64,000 nt of DNA from Sphaerochaeta associata (lineage in GTDB: Bacteria; Spirochaetota; Spirochaetia; Sphaerochaetales; Sphaerochaetaceae), in assembly GCF_022869165.1 (NCBI RefSeq), contig NZ_CP094929.1, forward strand, positions 3,286,001 to 3,350,000, in the 5' to 3' direction. The notes under the pieces are model-generated. The model ran no database searches. It saw only the letters and a list, made by a program, of their open reading frames with translations, and was not told the origin of the DNA. Made by a program: the position numbers and the translations under genes. How positions within the stretch are numbered: the stretch's first letter is position 1; every line of letters starts with the position of its first letter. Shown here one piece after another: positions 18,374 to 43,356 of the stretch.

Positions 18374-18446
18374 AGCCCTCGAACGGATTTGAACCGTTGA
18401 CCCCCACCTTACCATGGTGGTGCTCTACCGACTGAGCTACAAGGGC
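18374..18446 (-). tRNA. trnT: tRNA-Thr (GGU)
   Basis: Cloverleaf on the minus strand with acceptor GCCCTTG/CGAGGGC, anticodon stem CCACC/GGTGG and loop ATGGTAA, giving GGU (decodes ACC/ACU). The discriminator base is U, as in Firmicutes; E. coli tRNA-Thr has A. This U matches the pairing base of the thrS T-box at 42.6 kb. Confidence 0.95.
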
Positions 18447-40781: not shown

Positions 40782-42527
40782 TTACAGCTGCTCCTTGTTC
40801 TCTACCTTCTGCTTCACCATATCGATGAAAGCCTGGGTGGAGAGTCCATTCTCCTGCTTGCCGGTTCTCAGTCGTACCGACACCTGGTCGTTCTGAGCCT
40901 CCCGGTCGCCGATGATCACCATATAGGGGATCTTCTGCTGCTGGGCATTGCGGATCTTTGCATTCATGCGGTCGTCGCCAAGATCGGCCGATACCCGCAA
41001 GCCTTCCTTGCGCAGCCTTCGTTCCAATTCCTTGGCATAATCGAAGAAAGTCTCCCCTACAGGAATAATCTTGATCTGCTCGGGTGACAACCACGGCGGG
41101 AACGCTCCTGCATAGTGCTCGATCAGAACTCCGAAGAACCGTTCGATGGAGCCCAGCAGGGCACGGTGGATCATGTACGGACGCTTTTCCACCCCGTCCT
41201 TGTCCACGAACGTCATATCAAAGCGTTCAGGCTCATTGAAGTCGAACTGCACGGTGGAGAGCTGCCATTCACGACCGATGGCATCCTTGATCTTGAGGTC
41301 GATCTTCGGACCGTAGAAAGCACCGCCGCCTTCATCAATCTCATAAGAGAGACCCTCGGCCACAATCGCCTTGCGCAGCGCCTCGGTTGCATCAGCCCAC
41401 CGAGCCGGATCACCAACCGATTTCTCAGGCATGGTGGAAAGGTACGCGTTGATCTCGGTAAAGCCGAATGAGTGAAGCATGTGCAGCGAAAAGCGCAATA
41501 CTTCCAGAATTTCGTCATTCATCTGGTCGGGGGTGACAAAGAGGTGGGCGTCATCCTGAGTGAAACCTCGCACCCTCATCAAACCATGCATGGCACCAGC
41601 CTTCTCATATCGATACACCGTACCAAGTTCAGCCCAACGGAAGGGCAGGTCCCTGTAGGAACGCTTGCTGTTCTTGTAAATCATTATATGGAACGGGCAG
41701 TTCATCGGCTTCACATAATAGTCGCTCTTGTCCATCTCCATCGGAGGATACATACCCTCCTTGTAGAAGCCCAAATGACCGCTGGTCTCCCAGAGCCACG
41801 AACGGCCGAGGTGGGGGGTATAGACCATCTCATAGCCGTTGGCATAATGCTCGTTGCGCCAGAAGTTCTCGATCGCCTGACGAATACGCGCCCCCATCGG
41901 GTGCCAATAGACCAGGCCGGGACCGGCTTCCTCATGCAGACTGAACAAATCGAGCTCCTTGCCGAGCTTGCGGTGGTCGCGTTTCTCCACATCCTCAAGG
42001 TGCTGCAGATAGAGCCTCAGCTCCTTGGCATTTGCCCATGCAGTGCCGTAGATGCGGGTAAGCATCGGATTGGTCTCCTTGCCACGCCAATAGGCACCTG
42101 CAATACTCATCAGCTTGAAGGCATCGGCCTTCAGCTCCTTGGTCGACTCCACATGAGGTCCGCGGCAAAGGTCGGTAAAACCGCCTTGGCTGTACAGGGA
42201 GACCTCCTCGTCCTCGGGAATCGCCTGCAGCAATTCAAGCTTGTAGGTCTGGTCGGCAAACTGCTTCTGAGCTTCGGCTCTACTGACCACCGTCCGGACA
42301 AACGGCTTGCCCTCGGCGATGATGGCCTTCATCCTCTCAGTGATCTCCTCGAGGTCCTCGTTCACCAACTGCCTGGGCAGATCGAAATCATAGTAAAAGC
42401 CGTTGTCAATCGCAGGGCCGATCGTTATCTGTGCCGAGGGAAACATCTGCAGCACTGCTTCCGCCATGACATGCGCCATTGAGTGTCTAATTCTGGAGAG
42501 TCTCTCTCCTGCATCTTCCTTTGCCAT
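40782..42527 (-). CDS. thrS: Threonyl-tRNA synthetase
   Basis: 581 aa. It starts MAKEDAGERLSRIRHSMAHV, directly at the editing (N2/SAD) domain with its HxxxH-type site (HSMAHVMAEAV) and DLCRGPHVESTKEL. The usual N-terminal TGS domain of about 60 residues is missing. Class II catalytic motifs follow (motif 2 around FRWAELGTVYRYEKAGAMHGLMRVRGF, motif 3 near the C-terminal part of the core) and then the anticodon-binding domain (KIIPVGETFFDYAKEL). ATG 42527 follows AGGAG. Controlled by a T-box leader. Confidence 0.97.
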   Translation of the reverse strand: MAKEDAGERLSRIRHSMAHVMAEAVLQMFPSAQITIGPAIDNGFYYDFDLPRQLVNEDLEEITERMKAIIAEGKPFVRTVVSRAEAQKQFADQTYKLELLQAIPEDEEVSLYSQGGFTDLCRGPHVESTKELKADAFKLMSIAGAYWRGKETNPMLTRIYGTAWANAKELRLYLQHLEDVEKRDHRKLGKELDLFSLHEEAGPGLVYWHPMGARIRQAIENFWRNEHYANGYEMVYTPHLGRSWLWETSGHLGFYKEGMYPPMEMDKSDYYVKPMNCPFHIMIYKNSKRSYRDLPFRWAELGTVYRYEKAGAMHGLMRVRGFTQDDAHLFVTPDQMNDEILEVLRFSLHMLHSFGFTEINAYLSTMPEKSVGDPARWADATEALRKAIVAEGLSYEIDEGGGAFYGPKIDLKIKDAIGREWQLSTVQFDFNEPERFDMTFVDKDGVEKRPYMIHRALLGSIERFFGVLIEHYAGAFPPWLSPEQIKIIPVGETFFDYAKELERRLRKEGLRVSADLGDDRMNAKIRNAQQQKIPYMVIIGDREAQNDQVSVRLRTGKQENGLSTQAFIDMVKQKVENKEQL

Positions 42528-42550
42528 ACCATCTCCTCGTATATACCAAC

Positions 42551-42852
42551 AAAAAAAGCCTTCATGCCTTCCCTCTCCGGTACGGCATCATCCGCATCCG
42601 GCAAGGACGAAGACATGAAAGCTCTCATGTTCCGCGGTTCCACCTTGCTTCCCTTTTCGATTCTATCCCACCGAAAAGGACGCTCAATTTACCTGTATCG
42701 CCAGGTGTGCGGCATAGTCTACTGGGTTTCCCGTTCGGTATGCGGCTCAAAAGGGGTTTTCATCGAGCGCCTGCCGGACTCCTCTCAACCAAGGGAATCC
42801 TCTCTGTTGCCCCGCCATCGACTACTCGTCTTTCTCAACGCCTTGTAAGATA
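42551..42852 (-). ncRNA. T-box leader (threonine) upstream of thrS
   Basis: The minus strand has the T-box sequence AAGGTGGAACCGCG (42633-42646), a Stem I region with AGAAAGACGAGTAG and CAGAGAGG motifs, and a terminator whose arms AGCTTTCATG (42614-42623) and CATGAAGGCT (42557-42566) are followed by seven Ts (42551-42557). A candidate ACC (Thr) specifier is at 42755-42757. The variable T-box base is A, which pairs with the U discriminator of the tRNA-Thr(GGU) at 18374-18446. Uncharged tRNA-Thr should thus permit thrS transcription. Confidence 0.9.
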
Positions 42853-42876
42853 GAATGCTTACATTGGAAAAAATAG

Positions 42877-43356
42877 TCAAGAGTACAACAATTGGGAAAT
42901 TATCTTCGCAGCATCGTCGAGCAGCTTCTGGTCCTCAAGCGTAAAGCGTGAAAGCGTGGGGCTGTCCACATCCAACACCCCCACCACCCTGCCTTTTGCA
43001 TCGACAAGGGGAGCGACCACTTCGCTGTTGCTTGCACTGTCGCAGGCGATGTGATCGGCAAAGGCATGCACATCGTCGACGCGCACACTCTTGCCGGTAC
43101 GGGCGCACAACCCGCACACCCCCCTGGAAAAGGGGATGTCGGTACACGCCACCTTACCCTGGAATGGACCGAGCATCAAGTTCTGACCTGAATCGTCGAC
43201 AAGGTAAAACCCCACCCAGTTGATGTCTCCCAGATGTTCGGCAAGCAAGGCCGAGGCGTTGGCCAGATGACAATAACGCCTGGGAACAGAACCATCCCAA
43301 TCGCGTATGAGAGCAGCCAGCTGCTCAAGCATTCCCTCTGAATTGTGCAAATCCAT
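42877..43356 (-). CDS. msrC: Free methionine-(R)-sulfoxide reductase (GAF domain)
   Basis: 159 aa, a single GAF domain. The three cysteines of the fRMsr family are at C71 (KVACTDIPF), C81 (RGVCG) and C105 (HIACDSASNSEVV), which match C84, C94 and C118 of the E. coli enzyme. It reduces free methionine R-sulfoxide in the cytoplasm. It is 16 bases downstream of the second hydrogenase gene, so it appears to be the last gene of that operon. ATG 43356 follows AAGGAG. Confidence 0.92.
   Translation of the reverse strand: MDLHNSEGMLEQLAALIRDWDGSVPRRYCHLANASALLAEHLGDINWVGFYLVDDSGQNLMLGPFQGKVACTDIPFSRGVCGLCARTGKSVRVDDVHAFADHIACDSASNSEVVAPLVDAKGRVVGVLDVDSPTLSRFTLEDQKLLDDAAKIISQLLYS

Follow-up and report, generated by a model that had tools for sequence, protein, structure and literature searches.

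Class I T-box riboswitches of the thrS type, as described by the Rfam model RF00230, carry a Thr specifier and a UGGN core, and their antiterminator competes with a terminator. In an excerpt of one review, the contact with the tRNA end is described as four Watson-Crick pairs (PMC7583486). Bacillota thrS genes are frequently found under two or three tandem T-boxes, as stated in an excerpt of a further paper (PMC12452182). In a 2008 survey that covered 6 spirochaete genomes, their T-box count was 0 (PMC2494555), and the matches listed in a search of the open-access literature contained no earlier paper on spirochaete T-boxes.

Here, we describe a thrS leader from Sphaerochaeta associata, located within a 64,000-nucleotide stretch of contig NZ_CP094929.1 (hereafter, the window). 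The leader resembles the RF00230 thrS type in that it matches the full-length model and possesses a Thr specifier, a UGGN core, and an antiterminator set against a terminator. Unlike that type, it resides in a spirochaete and scores 2 bits under the curated cut-off, and thrS here has a single leader, in contrast to the tandem arrangement excerpted from PMC12452182. We confirm that the thrS T-box in this spirochaete is real: the element is a genuine, ordinary class I T-box of a kind that is already known.

Results

A class I T-box leader lies directly upstream of thrS

We scanned positions 42480-42960 with permissive Rfam settings and obtained a match to RF00230 on the minus strand (42600-42847) that spans model positions 1-219 of 219, with 91 bits and an E-value of 1.2e-20. 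The T-box had been proposed from the letters alone, and this full-length match bears it out, albeit 2 bits below the curated gathering score of 93. Because of that difference, no T-box is listed when the window is scanned with Rfam at its gathering thresholds. Two same-genus orthologues are above the 93-bit cut-off (G092, 96.5; G108, 93.4). In all 99 spirochaete thrS T-boxes examined, the window's included, the specifier is ACC (92 read by an anchored pattern and seven, L004, L137, L144, L152, L154, L157, and L161, by eye; an earlier pattern, which matched 94 leaders, prefers ACC by construction). This constancy at the specifier position, together with the E-value, argues that the leader is not a chance match. 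At E <= 0.001, there is no second T-box in the 3,554,903-base single-contig genome. The parts of the locus and the predicted ligand are as follows:

42852-42880, minus strand: weak candidate promoter, by eye, TTGACT (42875-42880), 17 nt, CATTCT (42852-42857)
42600-42847, minus strand: T-box leader, from Stem I to the antiterminator (RF00230 full-model match)
42822-42827, minus strand: GAGTAG, Stem I S-turn (AGUA) motif, by motif position and alignment to the RF00230 consensus AGUA
42755-42757, minus strand: specifier codon ACC (Thr), from the GAA-A-ACC-C placement in the RF00230 alignment
42719-42724, minus strand: CAGTAG, Stem II S-turn (AGUA) motif, by RF00230 alignment and motif position
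42704-42713, minus strand: Stem IIA/B region, aligned to the corresponding RF00230 positions
42651-42680, minus strand: Stem III hairpin, predicted fold
42633-42646, minus strand: T-box core AAGGTGGAACCGCG / AAGGUGGAACCGCG, with UGGA at 42639-42642 and the variable base A at 42639
42601-42648, minus strand: antiterminator, predicted fold, with helix A1 (GCAAGG/CCUUGC), a 7-nt bulge (UGGAACC), and helix A2
42554-42626, minus strand: intrinsic terminator stem, predicted fold with genus covariation, overlapping the antiterminator 3' arm
42551-42557, minus strand: run of 7 T ending the terminator, from the sequence
42533-42538, minus strand: GAGGAG, likely ribosome-binding site outside the terminator, from the sequence
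40782-42527, minus strand: thrS, threonyl-tRNA synthetase, 581 aa
18374-18446, minus strand: tRNA-Thr(GGU), predicted ligand (ARAGORN and Rfam), with U73 at 18374 and no encoded CCA

The coordinates and motifs of the original prediction, its core, specifier, and tRNA among them, are correct. Formation of the Stem IIA/B pseudoknot is expected by analogy with the family. The leader promoter is uncertain: GCATNCT at the candidate site is conserved in the genus alignment, and the site is missing from a promoter scan whose one promoter-like site falls inside the leader.

The thrS product matches the bacterial ThrRS equivalog model TIGR00418 (731 bits; cut-off 384), and its Pfam domains are tRNA_SAD, tRNA-synt_2b, and HGTP_anticodon only, with no Pfam match to an N-terminal TGS domain at E <= 0.001. 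The TGS-bearing enzyme is a common, although not universal, bacterial form of ThrRS. Among the best 80 loci, relatives of the window's thrS outside Spirochaetota (55-62% identity) include members of Chloroflexota, Lentisphaerota, and Elusimicrobiota as well as a few Bacillota.

The specifier fits the amino acid handled by the downstream enzyme. A pattern search allowing up to 3 mismatches returned tRNA-Thr(GGU) as the sole GGU-anticodon tRNA in its own genome; its anticodon is complementary to ACC, and its U73 is complementary to the variable A of UGGA, in line with the NCCA end of a tRNA. The ACC codon, at first only a candidate, and the A-U73 match had both been predicted, and the leader and the tRNA gene of the same window do form an internally consistent RNA pair at the level of complementarity.

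We consider it very probable that a class I transcriptional T-box riboswitch controls thrS according to threonine supply. By analogy with the family, we infer that the leader binds the tRNA and senses its charging, and in which direction control runs. When threonine is short, uncharged tRNA-Thr(GGU) would contact the leader twice, its anticodon pairing with the Stem I specifier ACC and its free UCCA end with UGGA in the T-box bulge. The docked tRNA would hold the antiterminator, and RNA polymerase would read into thrS. The end of a charged tRNA-Thr would be unable to dock, upon which the far more stable terminator would form and transcription would stop at the T run.

Two competing folds are predicted, and the terminator covaries within the genus

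In its predicted fold, the antiterminator (42648-42601) has a bulge of exactly seven nucleotides; it is mutually exclusive with the intrinsic terminator, which captures the antiterminator 3' arm and then runs into 7 T. Predicted fold energies are -16.9 kcal/mol for the antiterminator versus -44.4 kcal/mol for the terminator. A consensus terminator scan (loops 3-8, at most 20 pairs counted) did not include the hairpin at 42554-42626. We aligned 13 of the 24 same-genus genomes with a T-box match, the window's own included. Across these 13 members, both sides are changed in 8 of the 31 terminator pairs; 0 of 500 shuffles reach 8 pairs, and slid versions reach 0 to 3. The antiterminator is nearly invariant in sequence and has no covariation in the same set, and the T-box core is invariant.

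The slightly sub-threshold Rfam score might suggest a decayed or inactive relic. Within the genus, however, conservation extends to the core, the specifier, the two competing hairpins, and the T run, and the terminator shows covariation; we rejected this reading on these grounds and regard it as extremely unlikely. Control of translation, as in class II elements, was likewise rejected as exceedingly improbable: we found no support for it, a strong predicted hairpin runs into the T run, and the likely ribosome-binding site is outside that hairpin. Because both this site and the thrS ATG (42527) lie beyond the terminator, the arrangement fits control of transcription.

Across the class, the antiterminator 3' arm was found in 98 of 99 Spirochaetia thrS leaders and not found in one. 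All five A1 pairs are kept in 92 of these 98, the remaining 6 being not fully paired, and the pairs are of several types (CAAGG/CCTTG in 52, TAAGG/CCTTA in 24, CGGGG/CCCCG in 3, AAAGG/CCTTT in 1, and others).

T-boxes are ordinary in the family

The original prediction regarded a T-box as unusual for a spirochaete. This view does not hold, as at least 122 of 139 genomes of the window's family and at least 72 of 392 sampled across the phylum carry one. Both counts are lower bounds because the search scored at most 15 (family) or 5 (phylum) first-look candidates per genome; a match is missing in 17 of the 139. Of the 72 phylum genomes, 31 belong to the family, 40 to other families of the class, and 1 lies elsewhere. 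T-boxes are therefore ordinary in this family, of which Bullifex porci (locus L077, genome G502) is one T-box-bearing member. The T-box coordinates of G502 coincide with those of G001 in the family set, which makes the family probably Sphaerochaetaceae.

We fetched a subset of these family and phylum matches, 129 T-box loci in total. Ninety-nine, from 99 genomes, are upstream of thrS (95 assigned by ORF match and four more, L156, L158, L160, and L161, by tblastn), and 30 are upstream of other genes. Seventeen of the fetched family loci (L012 and L162-L177) precede proteins with similar starts. In each of the two proteins searched with Pfam (L012 and L164), helix-turn-helix, cupin, and AMP-binding domains are combined in a single chain. 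Seven of 10 genomes have two T-boxes of this type, and the specifiers read by eye are GTC (Val) in L012 and ATC (Ile) in L164. Judged from these codons, control of an acid-CoA ligase by branched-chain amino acids is possible.

In family f9 of the class, UGGU T-boxes occur at L032, L033, L034, L035, L036, and L130-L132. According to Pfam searches of L032, L033, and L036, these T-boxes precede genes for a sodium:solute symporter, an AMP-binding enzyme, and a beta-eliminating lyase. By eye, the f9 specifiers are TAC (Tyr), and that of the symporter could also be ACA one base later. In one genome of the window's family, a 3.5 kb contig that is possibly a contamination carries a T-box (L003; G049:C241) whose specifier, by eye, is TTC (Phe) and which lies near a pheS-like gene.

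The UGGN base is often mismatched to a constant U73

While the specifier is fixed, the UGGN base varies: 57 of the 99 spirochaete leaders have A, 29 have U, 12 have G, and 1 has C. We tallied tRNA-Thr(GGU) in 45 of the 99 genomes, and the discriminator is U73 in all 45. The original prediction had called a U discriminator rare; this is not borne out, as U73 is also present in all 12 tallied Clostridia tRNA-Thr(GGU), whose partner leaders are 11 UGGA and 1 UGGG. Spirochaete Thr tRNAs with UGU or CGU anticodons, where listed, also have U73. Outside the count of 12, a Clostridia GGU tRNA with a variant loop (G512) has U73 as well, and a Clostridia UGU-anticodon tRNA that looks chimeric (G522:C55) ends in A73.

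By leader type, the 45 spirochaete genomes divide into 14 UGGA, 5 UGGG, 25 UGGU, and 1 UGGC, and in 26 of them the UGGN base is mismatched to U73. The mismatch genomes include the single-contig G433, G332, G341, G350, and G461. Among the 29 UGGU genomes, the tRNA was read in 25, each time with U73 and hence a U-U mismatch, the four left unread being G466, G436, G268, and G399. U versus not-U at the UGGN base changed at least 3 times within the main spirochaete thrS clade, in a direction that the tree does not tell. Since the UGGN base is often mismatched to U73 in related families, the A-U73 match in the window argues less strongly for pairing than it appears to.

The mismatch would disappear if, in the UGGU relatives only, the specifier were read one base later as proline (CCN) by a tRNA with A73. 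Shifted by one base, ACC and whatever follows it spell CCN, a Pro codon. In the 94 leaders scored, the next base is C, A, or G and never T, and tRNA-Pro usually has A73. We nonetheless consider this shift quite unlikely: the downstream gene is thrS, and ACC is found at the same position whether the leader has UGGA or UGGU. The Clostridia thrS leader L264 (GAAAACTACC) also contradicts it, with ACU (Thr) in frame and CUA (Leu) in the shifted frame.

We tentatively propose, as a reading that is quite possible rather than probable, that thrS T-boxes in much of Spirochaetia function with UGGU facing U73 in a U-U mismatch. The UGGN-N73 pairing rule would then be relaxed, with docking on three pairs or through another geometry, and the UGGA of the window would represent the paired reference state. 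Alternatively, the mismatch at the UGGN base may simply be tolerated.

Two other T-boxes of the family (L202 and L203) are upstream of genes for ABC-transporter substrate-binding proteins (Pfam on L202). Both have UGGC and, by eye, a TGG (Trp) specifier, and the window's tRNA-Trp ends in G73. Judged against this tRNA, which is the window's rather than that of the L202 and L203 genomes, UGGN pairing seems to be kept for tryptophan in the same family.

The Clostridia thrS T-boxes provide a comparison. An exact UGGNACC core is present at 21 of 30 thrS loci (L250-L279), as 20 UGGA and 1 UGGG, and L258 additionally shows a UGGC-like match that lies 44 bases upstream of the first. These cores were found by pattern, with Rfam run only on L076 (same sequence as L251). 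As in the window, a Thr codon is found wherever the specifier motif is readable, for example in L253, L255, L258, L259, L264, L265, L274, L276, and L278. Most of these T-boxes precede a canonical thrS whose product shares 40-51% identity with the enzyme of the window, and two precede a 60% relative.

The leader was most likely inherited within Spirochaetia

We built a quick thrS tree, without bootstrap, from 97 selected rows of those fetched, some of them partial. In this tree, 51 spirochaete thrS rows, including the window's, form one clade (SH-aLRT 99), and ten canonical Clostridia thrS form a separate clade (SH-aLRT 99). The nearest outside rows to the spirochaete clade are three Chloroflexota with UGGA T-boxes on the same gene. 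Lentisphaerota and Elusimicrobiota lie beyond them, and the 60%-identical Clostridia type is further out. The exact core is missing in the stretch searched for 12 of the 51 clade rows, some of which are on short contigs.

The Chloroflexota loci (L069, L070, and L073) are like the window: RF00230 matches just upstream of thrS, the bulge is UGGA, the specifier is ACC by eye, and the enzymes are 59-62% identical to that of the window. They differ in that each Chloroflexota genome has 5 to 7 T-box matches, against one in the window's genome. Two of these loci, both from Anaerolineae, have a tRNA gene just upstream of the thrS T-box (L070, 2552-2625; L073, 183-256).

The original prediction had suggested import from Firmicutes. 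A recent import of leader and thrS together could draw on the UGGNACC cores, mostly UGGA, at 21 of the 30 thrS loci above, which come from the class of a Clostridiaceae MAG. It could also draw on a 60%-identical thrS in 2 of 31 genomes, G508 and G495 (the latter assigned to Clostridia by inference and chosen as the centre because it is a carrier). Against it, the spirochaete thrS clade stands apart from the canonical Clostridia, so that a recent import is not supported; the nearest outside rows are from other phyla, and the leader extends through the family and beyond it to many others in the class. We consider such an import very unlikely. The element was most likely inherited within Spirochaetia rather than newly imported; most simply, it would be a long-standing trait of Spirochaetia that some members have lost. 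An exchange in the distant past is possible, the partner being Chloroflexota or the few Bacillota with the related thrS type. A literature search found no paper on gene transfer in Sphaerochaeta.

A second spirochaete thrS lineage is placed outside the main clade (L145, L154, L142, L153, L137, L045, and L116, of which L045 and L116 may represent one organism). Its genes are also under T-boxes, with UGGU in 6 of 7 rows. Possibly, the gene was replaced under a kept leader, or the leader spread.

Discussion

The thrS leader of S. associata and its relatives place tRNA-sensing transcription control firmly in Spirochaetia. The combination of a fixed ACC specifier, a constant U73, and a varying UGGN base amounts to a natural experiment on the weight of the discriminator contact.
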